A stretch of DNA of 64,000 nt from a virus, in IMG/VR virus record IMGVR_UViG_3300044608_002262, positions 1-64,000 of that record; one strand, 5' to 3'. Shown here piece by piece: positions 50-60,471 of this stretch (position 1 is the first letter of the stretch; every line of letters starts with the position of its first letter). The position numbers were made by a program, and so were the translations under genes. The notes beneath the pieces are model-generated. The model ran no database searches. It had not been told where the DNA came from and saw nothing but the letters and a program-made list of their open reading frames with translations.

Positions 50-268
50 TTAGTCGTTGAAGTAATCCATTCCCTTGCGCTTGATGCTGCGCACGAGTTT
101 GTCGTAGTCCCAATTCGTAAGATGCGTCCAGACCCAGCGGTTCTTTTTCTCGTTCAGTATCCAGACGTTGTTGTTTGGCGTGGTGTTGGAGAAGGATTCC
201 TCAACGAGAAAGCTGACTCCTTTGCGGCGGAACTCCGTGCGGCGGGTGTAATCTTGGGTTTTAGGCAT
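50..268 (-). CDS. Hypothetical protein, 72 aa
   Basis: A small, charged, soluble protein rich in Trp, Asn and Lys (for example WILNEKKNRWVWTHL). It starts at an ATG that overlaps the last 8 nt of the upstream AAA ATPase gene, so it is probably translated from the same message. No family was recognised. It is the last gene of the leftward operon visible here. A role tied to the ATPase module is only suggested by position. Confidence 0.6.
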   Translation of the reverse strand: MPKTQDYTRRTEFRRKGVSFLVEESFSNTTPNNNVWILNEKKNRWVWTHLTNWDYDKLVRSIKRKGMDYFND

Positions 269-1757
269 TGATCTTGCGTTTGTTGGTGTTGGGTTTGGCG
301 GTTTCGGGGTGAGAGGCGGGTTTGGCCTTGCCGGAAAGGCGGCGGCGGCGGGCTTCGATGGAGTCGGCCATGGTCACGCTGGTCGGGGTGGTCGCGGCGA
401 TGGCGTTGATCACGTCTTCAGTCGTTGGTTCGCGGGCATTGTCGTTAAAGGCATGGGTCATGGCGGTGAGCCAGACTTGCTCGATTTGGCGACCGGAGAA
501 TCCGCCGGATGCCTCGGCCATGTAAGAGATGTCGAAATCCTCCGGCTTGCGTTTGCGCTTGGCGATGTGGATGCGCCAGATGGCAGCGCGCTCGGCGGTG
601 GTGGGCAGATCCACGGCCCAAACGTCGAGGCGGTCGATGAGGGCATCGGGGAATCCGTCGATGTCATTGGCGGTGAAGACGAAAAATATGCCTTCGCTGT
701 TGAATTGCATATCTTGGAGGATGGTCTTGATCACGCGGTTGGTCGTGCCGCCATCGGTCGTGCCGCTGGTCTTGCCGCCGGAGAAGAGGCCATCGGCCTC
801 GTCGATCCAGAGGACGCAGGGGGCAATGGCCTTGGCCGTGGCAAAGGCACTGCGCCAGTTGGACTCGGATTGACCGACAAGCGAGCCAAAGAGCACGCCG
901 CCTTCGATGCGGACTCCGGGGATACCGAAGGAGATGCTGCAAGCGCGGGCGGTGAGCGATTTACCAGTGCCCGCTTGGCCTACGGCGAGGAAACCGCGCG
1001 GAGAGTCGAGGCCATAGTCGCGGGCCTCGCGGGTGAAGTTGCGCCGCTTGGAGACAAGATCGGCCTTGAGCAATTCGAGTCCGCCGATTTCATCGAGTGA
1101 GACAGTGTTGGAGACGATTTCGAGGATGCCGTTCTTTTTGACCGCCGATGCTTTCTCGCGGGAGATGATGGTCGGCGAGAACTCGCCGGATTCGACCACG
1201 GAGAGGGCGTAGGCGTCCTCGGCCTCGGTCGTGATGAGGCCCATGGAGGCATCGAGCACGGCATCGAGGGCATCGCCCTGCGGCATCGGCTTTCCGGTCG
1301 ATTCGCAGAAGGTGGTGAGAAGGCTCTGCAATTCCTCGCGCTTCGGGAGTTGGAATTCCTCCATGACGAAGTGCTTCGACAATTCCTCGGGCAGCTTGAA
1401 GATGGGCGAGAGGATGATGATGGTCTTCTGCGCGGTCTTGGCGTGGAGGCAAGCGTCTTTGACCATGCGGTAGATGATCGGGTTCGGCTCGGCCAGCACG
1501 AGATGGAAGTCGCGCAGGAGGAGGATGGTTTTCTCGGGCAGTCCGTGGATGGCGGCGAGAACCTCGGTGGGATCTTGCTCGCCGAAGGCGGCTCCGGTGC
1601 GAACGTCGATGCGACCAGCGGTGCAAGACCAAGCATGGAGGGCATACTCCAGTTGGTCGGCCACGCCGCGAATCATGGACTCGGCGCGTTGCTCCTCGAA
1701 CGAGGTGAGGTAGATGCCGGGATAACCGGCACGGATTTTATGGGTTATGGATTGCAT
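261..1757 (-). CDS. Ycf46-like AAA+ ATPase
   Basis: A 498-aa AAA+ ATPase resembling plastid/cyanobacterial Ycf46. The N-terminal ~200 residues show the Ycf46 pattern (GYPGIYLTSFEEQR near 11-24, LLLRDFHLVLAEPNPII near 80-95, IIILSP and KLPEEL near 113-126). The C-terminal AAA domain has Walker A GQAGTGKS (260-267), Walker B VLWIDEAD (315-322), a sensor-1-like VFTAND and the GFSGRQIEQ helix. The start at 1757 was preferred to an in-frame upstream codon because homology begins there; it overlaps the zinc peptide gene by 13 nt. The family is predicted to remodel protein complexes, with substrate unknown. The neighbours DUF2997 and DUF1257 (Ycf35) also occur with Ycf46 in cyanobacteria, so this is probably a functional unit. 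Confidence 0.88.
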   Translation of the reverse strand: MQSITHKIRAGYPGIYLTSFEEQRAESMIRGVADQLEYALHAWSCTAGRIDVRTGAAFGEQDPTEVLAAIHGLPEKTILLLRDFHLVLAEPNPIIYRMVKDACLHAKTAQKTIIILSPIFKLPEELSKHFVMEEFQLPKREELQSLLTTFCESTGKPMPQGDALDAVLDASMGLITTEAEDAYALSVVESGEFSPTIISREKASAVKKNGILEIVSNTVSLDEIGGLELLKADLVSKRRNFTREARDYGLDSPRGFLAVGQAGTGKSLTARACSISFGIPGVRIEGGVLFGSLVGQSESNWRSAFATAKAIAPCVLWIDEADGLFSGGKTSGTTDGGTTNRVIKTILQDMQFNSEGIFFVFTANDIDGFPDALIDRLDVWAVDLPTTAERAAIWRIHIAKRKRKPEDFDISYMAEASGGFSGRQIEQVWLTAMTHAFNDNAREPTTEDVINAIAATTPTSVTMADSIEARRRRLSGKAKPASHPETAKPNTNKRKINA

Positions 1758-1915
1758 TGGTTGGGTTTTCTTTCGAGGAGGATCTTGACGCGGGCGCGGA
1801 TGGCGGGGAAGTCGATGCACATTCCGGTGCCTTCGCATTGAGGGCAGTTATCGCGCTCGATCCCCTTGCGGCAGCTACATTTCTGACCGGTCTTGGGTTG
1901 ATATGCTTTGTTCAT
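1745..1915 (-). CDS. Small zinc-finger (DnaJ-type cysteine) peptide, 56 aa
   Basis: This 56-aa peptide carries CSCRKG followed by CPQCEGTGMC, i.e. paired CxC/CxxCxGxG cysteines typical of a DnaJ-like zinc knuckle. It starts at an ATG that overlaps the stop of the 78-aa gene (ATGA) and ends inside the start of the AAA gene, indicating tight translational coupling. A purine-rich GGAAGAAG stretch lies upstream. It is probably an adaptor or structural partner of the ATPase; this is inferred from position only. Confidence 0.75.
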   Translation of the reverse strand: MNKAYQPKTGQKCSCRKGIERDNCPQCEGTGMCIDFPAIRARVKILLERKPNQCNP

Positions 1916-2148
1916 ACGCTCACTTCTTCCTCGATCCCGACAATCTTGTAATCGTCGGGATCGGCGGGTGATTTGTCGTAGCAGTAGTATTCCACTTCGC
2001 CCCACGATGCCTCGTCATACCAATCGGGATCGCCAGTTTTCAGTTGGTCGTGGAACTGCTTGGTGGCCGCACGTTTCGACTTGGCTTCAATATAGACATG
2101 GTTGACCAAGGTGCGGGTGCGCTGGACATCCAGCCGGAAGGTTTTCAT
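1912..2148 (-). CDS. Hypothetical acidic protein, 78 aa
   Basis: The protein has an RTLVNHVYIEAKSKRAA-type helix near its N terminus and a strongly acidic Tyr-rich C-terminal half (EVEYYCYDKSPADPDDYK). The start at 2148 overlaps the stop of the DUF2997 gene (ATGA), and its own stop overlaps the next start. The family is unknown. It is part of the Ycf46/Ycf35 unit by coupling. Confidence 0.7.
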   Translation of the reverse strand: MKTFRLDVQRTRTLVNHVYIEAKSKRAATKQFHDQLKTGDPDWYDEASWGEVEYYCYDKSPADPDDYKIVGIEEEVSV

Positions 2149-2330
2149 GCTGATTGGGTGGCCGATCCGGTGTTGAGGGTGTGGTATTCGGGCTTTTTCT
2201 TGCGGGTGGTCACAGTGCCGAGGGCGGCTTCGATGGCCTTGGTGGCTTTCTCGCAGGAATTGCCCTTGAAGCCGGTGGCTTCGATGGAGACTTCGCCGGT
2301 AGGCGTGATGGTGATGAGGAGCGATTTCAT
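2145..2330 (-). CDS. DUF2997-like protein, 61 aa
   Basis: A 61-aa protein with the DUF2997 pattern: an N-terminal beta strand (KSLLITITPTGEVSIEATGF) followed by GxxCxxATKAIEAALG and a basic C-terminal tail. DUF2997 genes are commonly adjacent to DUF1257 (Ycf35) genes in cyanobacteria and some phages, and that is the case here. The start at 2330 lies 2 nt from the DUF1257 stop. Molecular function is unknown. Confidence 0.75.
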   Translation of the reverse strand: MKSLLITITPTGEVSIEATGFKGNSCEKATKAIEAALGTVTTRKKKPEYHTLNTGSATQSA

Positions 2331-2332
2331 GG

Positions 2333-2716
2333 TTAGTTGAAGGATCCGGTGACGGCGAGGTTGATGGAGCCGTCTTGCTTGGTGACGCGGGCCACGGAGT
2401 AGCCTTTGGCGCGGCAAGCGGCGGTGGCGCGGTGGACGGCGTAAAGCTGCTTGAGCTTGGCGAAGTCCTTGCCGACAACTTTGGCGACGTGGCCGTTCCA
2501 CCAATCGGTGGTGAGGCCGAGCGTGCCATCGGTGTTGCGCTTTACGGCGATGTCGTAGGGGCCGGGGCATTTGATGACCATATCGGCCTTGAGGGTTTGC
2601 GATCCGTAGCCACGCGCAATGGCGTTGGCTTGGATGGGAAGGGCGAGTTCGCGGCAGGCGGCTTCGAGGGCTTTCTGGTCGCGGAACTCGCAGCTAACAG
2701 TTGTCCAGTGTGACAT
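2333..2716 (-). CDS. DUF1257 / Ycf35-like protein
   Basis: A 127-aa protein matching DUF1257 (plastid Ycf35). It opens with MSHWTTVSCEFRDQKALEAACRELAL in spirit of the family signature (short N-terminal strand plus acidic helix), then has IKCPGPYDIAVKRN and LTTDWWNG, and a C-terminal LYAVHRATAACRAKGYSV. The start at 2716 follows a CA-rich leader with AACACCAACC and no Shine-Dalgarno site. It is the first gene of the Ycf35/DUF2997/zinc/Ycf46 run. The function is unknown even in plastids. Confidence 0.82.
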   Translation of the reverse strand: MSHWTTVSCEFRDQKALEAACRELALPIQANAIARGYGSQTLKADMVIKCPGPYDIAVKRNTDGTLGLTTDWWNGHVAKVVGKDFAKLKQLYAVHRATAACRAKGYSVARVTKQDGSINLAVTGSFN

Positions 2717-2748: not shown

Positions 2749-2991
2749 CTACTGCGAGAGTTGCGCGTTGAAATGTTGGTGCTCCCACGCGAGGCAGGCA
2801 TCGCGGGAGGGATGGGAATAAGCGGTTTCGTCGTTGATGATGACTTGCCAGCACTGCGCTTCGTGGGCGAATTCGATGGTGCTGGCGCGCTCGATGGAGA
2901 GGCGACCGAGTTCGGCGAGCGGGATGTCCTCGTTCCAGAGGCAGCGCAGCGTGCCGTCAGTTGCGACTGACAATGTGTGCTGGCGGGGCAT
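2749..2991 (-). CDS. Hypothetical protein, 80 aa
   Basis: The protein has a beta-rich N-terminal part (LSVATDGTLRCLWNEDIPLAELG) and a C-terminal SRDACLAWEHQHFNAQL segment, resembling small phage proteins that mix a strand-rich core with a Trp/His helix. It starts at 2991, overlapping the previous gene by 35 nt in another frame, and there is a 32-nt gap to the DUF1257 gene. Function unknown. Confidence 0.6.
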   Translation of the reverse strand: MPRQHTLSVATDGTLRCLWNEDIPLAELGRLSIERASTIEFAHEAQCWQVIINDETAYSHPSRDACLAWEHQHFNAQLSQ

Positions 2992-3825: not shown

Positions 3826-4695
3826 TTAAGCGGCAAGTTTGCGGGCACCCATCGCACCGAAGCTGTCAGCTATGTTGCGGGCGGCGGCGGCGGTGGTTTG
3901 GCGGGTGAACTTGTTTTGGCGCAGGGTTTCGGCATCGCGCATCAGGTGGGTTTGGCAGTTGTGGATGAGTTCGGTGATGCGGGGGTTGTTGGCGATGTTG
4001 AGTTCGGGAGCGATGATGAGGATGTCGCGCAGGTTGCCGATGAGGGAGTCGCGGAAGATGGCATCGGGGTCGGAGAGCTTGGACGCGATGCGGTGGACGC
4101 AATCAAGCACGCGGGTCATCACCTGCTCGCTGGCTTGGGTGGCGGCGTGGTTCACGTTGCGCTCGATGTCGGCGCGGATCTGGGCGATGCGAACGTCATC
4201 GAGGTAGGACACGGCGAGGTCGGTGGTGCGGGGAACCGGCGCGGTGAACAGGGTGAAGGAGAACTTGCTGCGGATCTCGCTCGGCAGCGGGTAGTTTTCC
4301 GCGCGGAATTCGCCATTGTGGATGATGCGCGCTTTTTCGAGCACTTCGTCGTAACGCAGGGCGAAGTCGTCGGCCAGAGCGTTGAAGCGGGACTCGAAGC
4401 GGTCGAAGTAGGCGCGGTATTCCTCGAAGCGCGAGGTCGGCAGGAGGTAGCCGAACTGCGAGATGACAGTGTGGCGCTTGTGGAAGCTGTTCTCGGCATT
4501 GATCGCCTCGCTGCACAGCTTGGTGAAGGGGGTGATGAAGCTGGGAGGCCACAGCTTTGTGACCCACTGGCCTGCTTCTTTGCCCAGGTCGTGATTGTCT
4601 TTCACTTCCTCGGTCAGTTTCTTGTCGGTCTTCGACTTGCCCACCATCGAGACGGAGGGCTTGACGATGAGGACGCGGGATTGGATGTCGTTCAT
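3826..4695 (-). CDS. DUF3150-like phage protein
   Basis: A 289-aa mainly alpha-helical protein (WVTKLWPPSFITPFTKLCSEA, FHKRHTVISQFGYLLPTSRFEEYRAYFDRFESRFNALADDF, LPSEIRSKFSFTLFTAPVP, and a long C-terminal helical region). This order of features resembles DUF3150 proteins of phages and MoxR/AAA loci, which often sit near AAA ATPases as here. The start at 4695 overlaps the next upstream gene by ATGA. The assignment rests on recalled pattern, not a search. Biochemical role unknown. Confidence 0.55.
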   Translation of the reverse strand: MNDIQSRVLIVKPSVSMVGKSKTDKKLTEEVKDNHDLGKEAGQWVTKLWPPSFITPFTKLCSEAINAENSFHKRHTVISQFGYLLPTSRFEEYRAYFDRFESRFNALADDFALRYDEVLEKARIIHNGEFRAENYPLPSEIRSKFSFTLFTAPVPRTTDLAVSYLDDVRIAQIRADIERNVNHAATQASEQVMTRVLDCVHRIASKLSDPDAIFRDSLIGNLRDILIIAPELNIANNPRITELIHNCQTHLMRDAETLRQNKFTRQTTAAAARNIADSFGAMGARKLAA

Positions 4696-4943: not shown

Positions 4944-4993
4944 CTTTTGCAAAAAAGTGTGCCGGTGGAGGGCGTTGTGTCCCCCCACCGGCA
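4944..4993 (-). terminator. Rho-independent terminator with TTTTTTGCAAAAG tail
   Basis: On the minus strand a TGCCGGTGG/CCACCGGCA stem (arms 4985-4993 and 4960-4968) is followed by CACTTTTTTGCAAAAG. It lies directly downstream of the 58-aa gene. The same tail recurs at 5340, 5993 and 7078. Confidence 0.8.
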
Positions 4994-4999
4994 ATCCGG

Positions 5000-5176
5000 T
5001 TAGGGCTTGATGTAGGCGTTGAGGCCGATGGTCACGGCCTTGCCGTTGACGAGGGCGTTGGTGACGACGTTGCCGCCACTGGTGGCGACGACGAGGGTTT
5101 TGCCGCTGGCCGAGGGGCGCGGCGTGCCTACGGGGATGGTGACGACGAGGTTGCCGTCTTTGATCATGGCGTGCAT
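5000..5176 (-). CDS. Small hypothetical protein, 58 aa
   Basis: Encodes a 58-aa beta-rich protein (MHAMIKDGNLVVTIPVGTPR, then a GKTLVVATSGGNVVTNALVNGK repeat-like strand pattern). An AGGAGAA Shine-Dalgarno site lies at a proper distance before the ATG at 5176, one of the few clear ones in this operon. It is bounded downstream by the terminator at 4944-4993. Two Met codons (residues 1 and 4) could serve as starts. Function unknown; possibly a small DNA- or protein-binding beta barrel. Confidence 0.65.
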   Translation of the reverse strand: MHAMIKDGNLVVTIPVGTPRPSASGKTLVVATSGGNVVTNALVNGKAVTIGLNAYIKP

Positions 5177-5248
5177 AGCTGGTTTCTCCTGTGTTCGGTT
5201 GTCAGTTGAGGCCGCACGGCGAACACGATCCGTGCGGCGGAAAGAGGT

Positions 5249-5278
5249 GGGCTACCCCCCCCCACCGGAGGGTAGCCC
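5249..5278. repeat. 9-bp perfect inverted repeat
   Basis: GGGCTACCC and GGGTAGCCC are separated by 12 nt, with a C-run in the loop. No U-tract follows on either strand. It lies in the leader of the 58-aa gene, so it could be an mRNA structure or operator. Confidence 0.5.
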
Positions 5279-5339
5279 TTGTGCAAACGCGCCTTCTGGT
5301 TGGTTGCCCTCCCAATCGGCGCGGCCCATGCACAAATTG

Positions 5340-5356
5340 CTTTTGCAAAAAAGTGG
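5340..5356 (-). repeat. Copy of the TTTTTTGCAAAAG element
   Basis: The minus strand reads CCACTTTTTTGCAAAAG immediately after the stop of the 45-aa gene. Unlike the other three copies it has no strong GC stem directly upstream, only a weak GGTTT/AAACC pairing. Confidence 0.6.
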
Positions 5357-5357
5357 T

Positions 5358-5495
5358 TTAGTCGGAATCCCGGTGTGGGAAAAACCGCATGGCCGCGACA
5401 CGGCGGCGGCGCAAGAGTCGCCGCCACCACGAGAGTCGGCGCGGCGGCGCGGTGACGACGTGAAGGTAAAACAAGTGGGGAACGAGACGTTTCAT
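5358..5495 (-). CDS. Tiny Arg-rich protein, 45 aa
   Basis: A very basic 45-aa peptide (RRLSWWRRLLRRRRVAAMRFF) with paired Trp residues. The start at 5495 overlaps the stop of the 55-aa gene (ATGA), the main reason to accept it. It is the last of four coupled small genes. Such peptides may bind nucleic acid or membranes; this is speculation. Confidence 0.45.
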   Translation of the reverse strand: MKRLVPHLFYLHVVTAPPRRLSWWRRLLRRRRVAAMRFFPHRDSD

Positions 5496-5659
5496 GGAAG
5501 AAGCTGCCGGAGCATTTGCACGATTTGGCGGATGCTGGAGCGGGCGACAGTGCGGGTCGGATGGTCGGTGGCGTTGCGCATCGGCCAAAAGCGCGTGAGG
5601 CGGTCGGCCAAGGCTCCGCGCATGGTGAAGCGGGCATCGTGGGGAATTTGCAGGATCAT
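5492..5659 (-). CDS. Small basic protein, 55 aa
   Basis: Starts MILQIPHDARFTMRGALADR and ends in a helix (SSIRQIVQMLRQLLP). Both ends overlap neighbours by ATGA, which supports the gene despite its size. Arg-rich; family unknown. Confidence 0.5.
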   Translation of the reverse strand: MILQIPHDARFTMRGALADRLTRFWPMRNATDHPTRTVARSSIRQIVQMLRQLLP

Positions 5660-5877
5660 ACGACGAGGGCGGCGAAGGGTTGGAAGGTGAGTGACCCGCC
5701 GCGAACGCGCGGACGGCGCGGCGGCAGGGGATCGCGCTGCGCGGTCGGCAGGGGCAGACCGAGCGAGGCGTGGAGCATGGACACGAGGAAATCGTGGCGT
5801 TGCTGCTTGAGTCGGTCGCTGATCGGGGTCAGTTCGACGAGTCGGACGCGGGTGTTGCTGTGGTTGTAGCGTTTCAT
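5656..5877 (-). CDS. Small hypothetical protein, 73 aa
   Basis: Begins MKRYNHSNTRVRLVELTPISDRLKQQRHDFL, a helical basic start, followed by a Pro/Arg-rich segment and a hydrophobic end. Coupled by ATGA on both sides to the 31-aa and 55-aa genes. No family recognised. Confidence 0.5.
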   Translation of the reverse strand: MKRYNHSNTRVRLVELTPISDRLKQQRHDFLVSMLHASLGLPLPTAQRDPLPPRRPRVRGGSLTFQPFAALVV

Positions 5878-5969
5878 AGGAATTCGCGGATGATGCCGGA
5901 GAGTTGCCAGCGCCAAGTGGAGGGCTTGACGATGGCCACGGAGACATGGAGGAGGATGCGAGCAATCAT
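5874..5969 (-). CDS. Peptide of 31 aa
   Basis: A hydrophobic 31-aa peptide (ARILLHVSVAIV near the start, then a Trp pair and an amphipathic end). Its stop overlaps the next start (ATGA). It lies about 25 nt after the terminator element at 5993-6042 and so would be the first gene of that unit. It could be a leader peptide or small membrane protein. Confidence 0.4.
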   Translation of the reverse strand: MIARILLHVSVAIVKPSTWRWQLSGIIREFL

Positions 5970-5992
5970 AGGATAAAGTTTATGGTCGGTGA

Positions 5993-6042
5993 CTTTTGCA
6001 AAAAAGGGGATGGGTGAGGGTCGTTGTGACCCTCACCCATCC
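5993..6042 (-). terminator. Strong terminator with TTTTTTGCAAAAG tail
   Basis: The arms GGATGGGTGAGGGT and ACCCTCACCCATCC form a perfect 14-bp stem with a 7-nt loop (CACAACG on the minus strand), followed by CCTTTTTTGCAAAAG. It lies 6 nt after the stop of the 255-aa gene. Loop and tail resemble those of the 4944-4993 terminator. Confidence 0.88.
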
Positions 6043-6047
6043 ATCGG

Positions 6048-6815
6048 TTAGGCCGCTTTGCGTTTGCGGGCCTTGGGAGCGGCAACGTGCGTCTCGACCA
6101 TCGCGGTGATGAGATCGAGGAGCGGCGTCTTGTCGGGAGCTTGGGAGAGGATGGAGTCCAGTTCGCCCAAGAGGACAAGCGCGCGGTCTTGCAGTGCGCT
6201 CTGAACCGAAGCCGGGTCGGCGTTGGTCGGCATAGCGACCACGTTTTCCGGCGTGGCCGGAGTCTCGGCGGGCGTGCTGGTCGGCGTCGCCGTGACTTCG
6301 GGTTCTGCCTCGGTTTCGGCAGGTGTTGGTGTCTCGGAAGGCGTCTCGGCAGAGGCAGACGACTCGGTAGCCTTGGATTGCTCCTTGGCAGCGATGTCGG
6401 CGGCGTGCTCGGCGAGCGTCATGCCGAACTTCTCCAGCGAAGCCAACTCCAACCGCCATTTTGTGCGGTTGGCGAAGGCAGCGGTGGCTTTCTCGGCCCC
6501 GATTTTGCTGATGGTCTGGCACTCGCGGAGTGTCAGGTCATCATAGCGGGACTCGGTGATGACACCATTGACGACAAGGGCGAAGGCGTTGCTCGCGTAT
6601 TGGCTGTTGGATATTGTGCCTTGCGAGATGCCCTTTTCCTTGAGGTAAGCCGTGATGGTCTGACCGCGCGGCACTTGCGGAATCATGGCGGTGAAGACTT
6701 TGCCAAGTTCCGAGAAGATCCGGCGGAGAGAGTTCTCGCGGTTGGTGAACTCGGCAGTGAGCTTGTCAATGCCGAGCTTGCTGAAGGTCGCAAATGCGAC
6801 GATTTGGTTTTTCAT
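6048..6815 (-). CDS. Hypothetical protein, 255 aa
   Basis: Residues 1-60 are a helical region with RRIFSELGKVFTAMIPQVPRG. Next comes a segment that reads like a helix-turn-helix (TITAYLKEKGISQGTISNSQYASNAFALV). Residues ~145-190 form a Pro/Thr/Glu low-complexity linker, and a C-terminal helical domain ends in a basic KARKRKAA tail. The start at 6815 follows a CA-rich leader (GAAACCAACACAAAAGAACC) without a Shine-Dalgarno site. It is monocistronic by its terminator. It may be a DNA-binding or structural accessory protein, family unknown. Confidence 0.6.
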   Translation of the reverse strand: MKNQIVAFATFSKLGIDKLTAEFTNRENSLRRIFSELGKVFTAMIPQVPRGQTITAYLKEKGISQGTISNSQYASNAFALVVNGVITESRYDDLTLRECQTISKIGAEKATAAFANRTKWRLELASLEKFGMTLAEHAADIAAKEQSKATESSASAETPSETPTPAETEAEPEVTATPTSTPAETPATPENVVAMPTNADPASVQSALQDRALVLLGELDSILSQAPDKTPLLDLITAMVETHVAAPKARKRKAA

Positions 6816-6969
6816 GGTTCTTTTGTGTTGGTTTCGGAAATGGCGGGAAGCCGCGCGCCGAAGGCACGCGTTCCGCCAAGAAACGGACGGAGAACCGAAC
6901 CGAAATGTAACCTATCCTGCCGGAGACGATCCGGCTGGCAGGCCAGCGGAGACAAGTCAGCAACTTGCC

Positions 6970-7033
6970 TCGGACGCTGGCTCGCGGCCCCCGAAGTGAA
7001 TCGGTCAGGTGGAGGGGGGGAGCCAGCGTCCGA
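6970..7033. repeat. 14-bp perfect inverted repeat
   Basis: TCGGACGCTGGCTC (6970-6983) and GAGCCAGCGTCCGA (7020-7033) are separated by 36 nt. Flanking CTTG/CAAG can extend the pairing. It lies upstream of the 255-aa minus-strand gene, so a regulatory or RNA-structure role is possible. Confidence 0.6.
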
Positions 7034-7077
7034 AACAAGGTTCGGACGGCGCGCGGATCATCTCACCGCGCGATTCA

Positions 7078-7113
7078 CTTTTGCAAAAAAGCGACCGCGC
7101 GAGAATCCGCGCG
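7078..7113 (-). terminator. Terminator-like element with TTTTTTGCAAAAG tail
   Basis: The minus strand has CGCGCG, a 6-nt loop and CGCGCG, then GTCGCTTTTTTGCAAAAG. The stem is short but all GC, and the tail matches the other copies. No gene is seen in the ~130 nt upstream, so it may back up the terminator at 7243-7280 or end a small RNA. Confidence 0.5.
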
Positions 7114-59236: not shown

Positions 59237-59440
59237 TCAAGCCGTCTTACGCTTGGTTTTCTTGGGTCGTTTTGGGGGTGGCTTGGGCATCTCGGCCAAG
59301 TCGCAGGTGCGGAGGATGTCGTTGAGGAATTCCTGCACCATTTGCAGGCTCATCACGGCATCGGCGGCGAGGGTGAGCGCCTGCCAGATGAGGCGGTCGC
59401 GGTCATCCTTGGTGTAATACTTGGTTTTGGGTTCGGTCAT
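59237..59440 (-). CDS. Hypothetical protein, 67 aa
   Basis: MTEPKTKYYTKDDRDRLIWQALTLAADAVMSLQMVQEFLNDIL then a Pro/Lys tail (PPPKRPKKTKRK). Helical N terminus, basic C terminus. ATGA overlap with the clamp gene. No family. Confidence 0.5.
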   Translation of the reverse strand: MTEPKTKYYTKDDRDRLIWQALTLAADAVMSLQMVQEFLNDILRTCDLAEMPKPPPKRPKKTKRKTA

Positions 59441-60471
59441 GCGGCTTTGGCTTGTGCGGGTTGTGCCGTCCTCATTGGCATGAGGACGAGTTGTGCGTTG
59501 TGCGGGTGGTCCGTTTTGGTGAACAGACCCGGAGAGAGGTCGTCGAGCACGTCCAGCGTGTTGAATCCGGCCTTGAGATAGGGGCGCACGAATTCGGCGT
59601 TGAATGAGATGTCGCTCGTGCCATCCGCGATACAGAAGATATTACGGGCGTGTTCGCGCCCTTCTGGGTCGATCAGCACAATCTGCGACACCCCCTTGCG
59701 GATGCGGAAGTGGAATTGCTCGTCGCGCAACAGGTGAAATGGCAGCGAGTCCAGCGCCTCGATCACGTGCTGCGGGTTGAACTGCACATTGACCAGCGCG
59801 GGCTTTGGCATGACCTTGCGCCATTCGGGGTAGTTGCCATCCACGGCCCTGACCACCAGCGTCATGTTGCCGCCGCGCAGCCGTAGGAACTTCTGGCCAT
59901 TGCGCTCCGTCACTTGGATGAACGCTTCGCCCTTTACCGAGCGATGGAATGCGCGGATTAGCTTGGAGTCCGGCACGATGAGCGGTTTGTCGTGGATCGT
60001 TTGGTGGCCTTGCGAGACGTAGAGGCAGCGTCCGTTGGTGGCGATGATATGGTCGCCTTCGAGGCACGTGCCGTTCAGCACGTAGCGGGTCGTATCGGTC
60101 GAGATGCTGTGCTCGGCTTCGAGCATTGCCGTCACCGGATACGGATGCGCCGTGGGCGGGAAGGGCGTGCTGGCCGCTTCGCCGATCACGCGGATCAGTT
60201 CGTCCGTATCCTTCTTGCCGACCGGAGTGATCGCCGCGAAAGGATCGCGGCTTTTGGTCTTGGCGTGGTGTTTGAGGTCATCGAGCGATACGGCATACGG
60301 CGCGTTCCTCTGCGGTTGGCAGGGGATGGTTACGCTCATGGCTCCCCACGAGTTCTTCGTGGCGAGGGCGGTGAGGGTCACGTGGTCATGCGCTGGACGC
60401 ACGAGCACATTGCACAATGCCGGTATTGCTTTTTGGTCTATGGCTTTACTGAGCAGGTTCGTGTAGTTCAT
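59437..60471 (-). CDS. DNA sliding-clamp (DnaN-like) homologue
   Basis: A 344-aa protein resembling the DNA polymerase III beta clamp. YVLNGTCLEGDHIIATNGRCLYVS parallels the beta-clamp GxxxxATDGxRL region. MTLVVRAVDGNYPEWRKVMP matches the domain-linker motif (GxYPDYxxVxP), and it ends HNAQLVLMPMRTA, like the DnaN VMPMRL terminus. It encircles DNA and tethers polymerase. A phage-encoded clamp is uncommon outside some large phages. It overlaps the upstream gene by 26 nt. Confidence 0.75.
   Translation of the reverse strand: MNYTNLLSKAIDQKAIPALCNVLVRPAHDHVTLTALATKNSWGAMSVTIPCQPQRNAPYAVSLDDLKHHAKTKSRDPFAAITPVGKKDTDELIRVIGEAASTPFPPTAHPYPVTAMLEAEHSISTDTTRYVLNGTCLEGDHIIATNGRCLYVSQGHQTIHDKPLIVPDSKLIRAFHRSVKGEAFIQVTERNGQKFLRLRGGNMTLVVRAVDGNYPEWRKVMPKPALVNVQFNPQHVIEALDSLPFHLLRDEQFHFRIRKGVSQIVLIDPEGREHARNIFCIADGTSDISFNAEFVRPYLKAGFNTLDVLDDLSPGLFTKTDHPHNAQLVLMPMRTAQPAQAKAA

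Follow-up and report, generated by a model that had tools for sequence, protein, structure and literature searches.

The window, that is the whole stretch of DNA analysed here, covers 64 kb of an IMG/VR virus record 66.8 kb long and contains portal, major capsid, terminase, integrase and primase genes, which identify its source as a temperate tailed phage. Near its left end lies a group of minus-strand genes (Table 1), and the five ORFs from the ATPase to DUF1257 are all present as the earlier note had described them, tightly packed with overlaps of 4 or 13 bp or a gap of 2 bp. In the nearest relative, L002, the sequence runs unbroken from this module across the left end of the window to the record end and on through 64.0-60.0 kb. 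Window position 1 and the record end at 66800 are joined in this relative, indicating that the genome is circular or circularly permuted.

Table 1. Genes of the module operon and its upstream neighbours in the window.
Feature	Coordinates	Strand	Remarks
Ycf46-type AAA+ ATPase	261..1757	-	498 aa, start at 1757; PF00004 3.9e-21; phrog_8638 1.7e-97
Cys-rich (CxC..CxxCxGxGxC) peptide	1745..1915	-	56 aa; lineage-specific, not core; only in L002
Acidic protein	1912..2148	-	78 aa; lineage-specific, not core; only in L002 at E<1e-3
DUF2997	2145..2330	-	61 aa, invariant Cys26; PF11211 9e-19
DUF1257 (Ycf35 family)	2333..2716	-	127 aa; PF06868 7.8e-13
orf83 family	2749..2991	-	80 aa from ATG at 2991; phrog_38408 3.1e-6; accessory, DUF3150 variant
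DUF3150-like protein	3826..4695	-	289 aa; PF11348 2.7e-5; accessory gene of the window's variant

Taking the curated Pfam cut-offs as thresholds for family membership, the ATPase belongs to the AAA family (76.3 bits against a cut-off of 21.2, with both Walker A and Walker B present), and the DUF2997 and DUF1257 homologues proposed earlier were recovered by profile search well over their cut-offs (67.5 against 24.1 bits and 49 against 22.2 bits, respectively); the DUF3150-like protein scores slightly below its own (24.0 against 24.9 bits). Comparison with L002 gave dN/dS values of 0.28 for the ATPase, 0.26 for the acidic protein, 0.05 for DUF2997 and 0.08 for the DUF3150-like protein, with zero amino-acid changes in DUF1257, which indicates that all of these are genes under purifying selection. 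The Cys-rich peptide has no synonymous differences from its L002 counterpart, hence no dN/dS, and is 95.6% identical over 45 codons.

The ATPase matches phrog_8638, a functionally uncharacterised PHROG family, over residues 2-495. It comprises an N-terminal domain (residues ~1-200) that is probably a degenerate AAA domain and a C-terminal AAA domain (residues ~205-458) that is predicted to be active. The protein has GQAGTGKS as Walker A, VLWIDE as Walker B and N364 as the sensor-1 residue. The assignment of the N-terminal domain comes from the profile alignment of the N half of the protein to its own C half, at 55% probability (hhalign, E 1.2e-4), and an alignment of Ycf46-type N-domains revealed that the P-loop is absent from this domain. 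Pore loop 1 reads Ser-Leu-Val-Gly in the window ATPase and is largely non-aromatic across the family, and Pfam and NCBIfam scans found no protease domain. The Walker motifs and the N-terminal Ycf46 pattern noticed previously are both there, the pattern, with its invariant residues, being common to the window ATPase and cyanobacterial Ycf46; moreover, residues 8-482 align at ~35% identity to Nostoc and Gloeocapsopsis proteins. Because the same two-part protein occurs in cyanobacteria, we regard the ATPase as Ycf46-type rather than generic AAA, and, with both DUFs above cut-off, the locus does not present a generic AAA protein without DUF1257/DUF2997 matches. The description of the ATPase as Ycf46-like holds for the broad family, defined by a degenerate N-terminal domain and a C-terminal AAA domain within ~500 aa, but not in the sense of a strict orthologue of cyanobacterial/plastid Ycf46: a quick maximum-likelihood analysis of 120 proteins placed the window ATPase with phages and Verrucomicrobiota/Lentisphaerota (SH-aLRT 100), outside the cyanobacterial clade, which is separate within the same family. 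This grouping suggests that the host of the phage is probably a member of the Verrucomicrobiota.

We found 78 viral relatives, and linkage was counted over 84 viral loci, where DUF1257 lies beside the ATPase in 46 and DUF2997 in 44, with a gene order that varies between loci; this neighbourhood analysis bears out the proposal of a conserved module that is mobile on phages. Across 146 distinct ATPase loci, the two DUF genes occur together in 65, neither is found in 69 and only one in 12 (p = 8e-27, kinship ignored). Likewise, among 149 Planctomycetota genomes, all 14 with DUF1257 are among the 25 with DUF2997, and these 25 all fall within the 48 with a Ycf46-type N-domain (p = 3e-13 and 2e-15 for the two nestings, kinship ignored), such a domain lying no more than 10 kb away at 29 of 31 DUF2997 places. 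The module is present in the cultured phages Aeromonas HJ05, Rhizobium RHph_I4 and Pseudomonas SM1, and on plasmids or genomes of Paenibacillus, Ca. Manganitrophus, Pseudanabaena, Planctomycetota, Verrucomicrobiota, Myxococcota and Methanococcoides. The trio of ATPase, DUF1257 and DUF2997 is a real and widespread module in viruses, bacteria and archaea, and the recurrence of this gene set in many of them makes it very probable that the three proteins function as a single machine. In Mycobacterium phage Firecracker the ATPase is present, with neither DUF1257 nor DUF2997 found, and 68 of the 146 loci carry no partner family; since many Ycf46-type ATPases lack linked partners, the motor may also act alone or with unlinked ones.

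In cells, the module was seen with Hsp70, and in some cases with GrpE, at L119, L122, L086, L146 and L159, and these neighbours suggest a protein-complex or chaperone setting; the same loci contain large proteins belonging to a HEAT/WD40 or FGE-sulfatase cluster. Separately, a conserved cluster of ~9 kb in Methanococcoides, Pseudomonas and Paraliomyxa (L115, L117, L140 and L162), which may be a defence or mobile-element system, contains a Ycf46-type ATPase, an SF1 helicase (AAA_11/AAA_12), large unknown proteins, DUF2997, DUF1257 and radical SAM.

DUF2997 has one cysteine that is invariant in 76 of 76 sequences, cyanobacteria among them. About half of the DUF2997-positive loci carry a radical-SAM protein of ~200 aa (Fer4_12, 3.6e-33) with invariant CxxxCxxC and GGEP motifs, and 35 of the 36 distinct loci with this protein have DUF2997. 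Ferredoxin Fed7 stands beside DUF2997 and Ycf35/DUF1257 in the cyanobacterial cluster g (PMC4284462), and a ferredoxin adjoins DUF2997-DUF1257 in all four cyanobacteria that we examined. A family search of the window found no member of the radical-SAM family, so that any cysteine chemistry is not directly transferable to this phage. The window belongs to a variant with DUF3150 and orf83 in which radical SAM almost never occurs, DUF3150 being present in 1 of 35 loci with radical SAM against 20 of 36 without it (p = 7e-7, kinship ignored). DUF3150 was found in 28 loci, and a Ca. Manganitrophus plasmid is annotated AAA-DUF1257-DUF2997-DUF3150; the suspicion that the DUF3150-like gene is part of the module is thus correct for one of its variants. 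The orf83 family was found in 25 loci, the phages HJ05, RHph_I4 and SM1 included. The earlier note had also counted the zinc peptide and the acidic protein of 78 aa as module members, a claim that is not supported, both being restricted to the window and L002; conservation of orf83 reaches further than that of the zinc peptide. We rejected the idea that this peptide substitutes for radical SAM or ferredoxin, given its lack of conservation past L002. The presence of the module in the genomes of bacteria and archaea, its radical-SAM partner, the DUF2997 cysteine and orf83 are new beyond the earlier note; our literature search found no mention of DUF3150, and the DUF2997/DUF1257 papers found there were not about phages.

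Ycf46 of cyanobacteria and red-lineage plastids (Slr0374 in Synechocystis) has the same two-part architecture as the window ATPase over its full length, but in cyanobacteria it lacks DUF1257 and DUF2997 within ~8 kb, whereas the window ATPase is linked to both. Where PMC7496141 cites Jiang et al. 2015, loss of Slr0374 is described as leading to lower EcaB carbonic anhydrase activity. The DUF2997 and DUF1257 families of cluster g are the same as those of the window, and phage-based profiles retrieve cyanobacterial DUF2997 at 1e-12 to 1e-14 and DUF1257 at 1e-29 to 1e-31; cluster g, however, has ferredoxin, while the window operon lacks it and has DUF3150, orf83 and the Ycf46-type ATPase. The cyanobacterial genomes G050-G053 each contain two or three DUF1257 genes, namely Ycf35 (~153 bits) and a second, divergent form (~82 bits).

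Structure prediction gave a DUF1257 model with pLDDT 90 and a poor DUF2997 model (pLDDT 58.6). Foldseek found no PDB match below E 0.001 for DUF1257 or for the low-confidence DUF2997 model, and PDB sequence searches with both returned chance matches only; among viral models, DUF1257 had two matches (2e-10 and 1.1e-4), both unnamed. With the DUF2997 model poor and DUF1257 lacking a confident PDB match, the fold yields no function.

Starting from the observed gene set, linkage, invariant residues and domain architecture, we see an even chance that the locus is a variant of a three-protein machine composed of a non-proteolytic AAA+ remodeller and a DUF1257-DUF2997 pair, and we infer a physical complex, an adaptor role, a cysteine chemistry and a non-proteolytic remodelling as follows. 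The Ycf46-type protein would be a Cdc48/FtsH-class AAA+ motor lacking a protease domain, with an inactive AAA domain ahead of an active one, and it would remodel or dissociate a protein complex with no degradation. DUF1257 and DUF2997 would be the dedicated adaptor/substrate pair of this motor, and the single invariant cysteine would be the functional site of DUF2997. In other lineages, a [4Fe-4S] partner might act on this cysteine, which would be modified or redox-switched; in many phages, bacteria and archaea this partner would be the small radical-SAM protein, and in cyanobacteria ferredoxin. In the variant of the window phage DUF3150 and orf83 would stand in place of that partner. More tentatively, Ycf46, Ycf35 and DUF2997 could possibly be one ancient machine of phages, bacteria, archaea and cyanobacteria, with the two Ycf proteins also in plastids. 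In such a machine an Fe-S enzyme or carrier would act on the DUF2997 cysteine and the AAA+ protein would then deploy or reset DUF1257-DUF2997, the phage variant having DUF3150/orf83 swapped in for the Fe-S partner.

The invariant cysteine also lends itself to a different scheme, one of peptide modification by radical SAM, in which DUF2997 would be a peptide substrate modified at its Cys, DUF1257 would provide recognition, the AAA+ protein would deploy the peptide and the window would hold a reduced form; we consider this unlikely. The Cys does lie in a protein of 60-70 aa, radical SAM adjoins in half of the DUF2997-positive loci, and in the FtsH ternary systems (Kaur et al. 2020, PMC7159879), whose inactive N-terminal and active C-terminal AAA domains resemble the layout of the window ATPase, some members have a radical SAM together with a separate gene for a peptide, the presumed substrate. 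However, the other half of the DUF2997-positive loci, including the window, have no linked radical SAM and yet keep the Cys invariant, and the ferredoxin found in that place in cyanobacteria is an electron carrier, not a modifying enzyme. Furthermore, vWA and MoxR, the published core of the ternary systems, were absent from the Pfam-scanned module genes of the window and from the scanned cellular neighbours, so that the locus is not a member of these systems, and DUF1257 is not named in PMC7159879.

As the earlier note suggested, the ATPase may remodel a host complex or support replication. A beta-clamp/RusA-like gene (59437-60471) lies in the same leftward block as the module, which is ~7.6 kb upstream of it once the record ends are joined, and this block shared with a sliding clamp suggests an early or replication role of the module in the phage. 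A beta-clamp-like gene is also close to DUF3150 in L007, L009, L092 and L093, and in RHph_I4 and SM1 DnaB and PolA follow a few genes downstream of the module. These arrangements would suit a replisome helper, with the ATPase remodelling a phage replication complex, for example by acting on the sliding clamp, but we find that reading distinctly unlikely, as DnaB is tens of kb from the module in most of the 150-200 kb relatives, cellular copies neighbour Hsp70, GrpE, HEAT/WD40 or TPR genes, and the clamp-loader match of the ATPase (phrog_168, 6.8e-4) is weak and generic to AAA proteins. We considered and rejected a link between the module and replication genes in general, which is true for the window lineage and RHph_I4/SM1 and fails in the large phages.

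Lower credence still is given to the reading that the phage carries the locus as a defence or counter-defence cassette. The AAA core of the ATPase resembles that of IetA, the ATPase of IetAS (7e-21), and an NCBIfam anti-phage ATPase (2.2e-20), and some cellular copies belong to large clusters that include SF1 helicases akin to PADLOC models. Nevertheless, the IetA match is confined to the generic AAA region (residues 244-460) and reaches 73 bits against a cut-off of 510, with the degenerate N-domain unmatched, the Pfam scan of the operon found no effector or protease partner, which places the locus outside IetAS, and the module is retained throughout one phage lineage. Finally, that a generic AAA gene came by chance to stand next to unrelated DUF genes, as the abundance of AAA families might allow, is exceedingly improbable and already contradicted by the Pfam matches at curated thresholds, the common Ycf46-type N-domain and the linkage (p < 1e-12 in two samples).

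The ycf46 and ycf35 genes have long been known from algal plastid genomes, their function being little understood. Both Ycf families are linked here to one operon with DUF2997, to its invariant cysteine and to an Fe-S partner, in non-photosynthetic organisms and phages, which argues for a basic activity that is not photosynthetic; this activity is open to direct test in cultured laboratory phages and in Synechocystis. In the stretch directly upstream of the module operon, we also observed four exact minus-strand copies of CTTTTTTGCAAAAG (window 4944-7091, at 4944, 5340, 5993 and 7078), where chance would yield 0.45 copies with up to 2 mismatches permitted. L002 has four copies in the corresponding stretch and none occurs in any other of 180 loci; the element is possibly a regulatory repeat.
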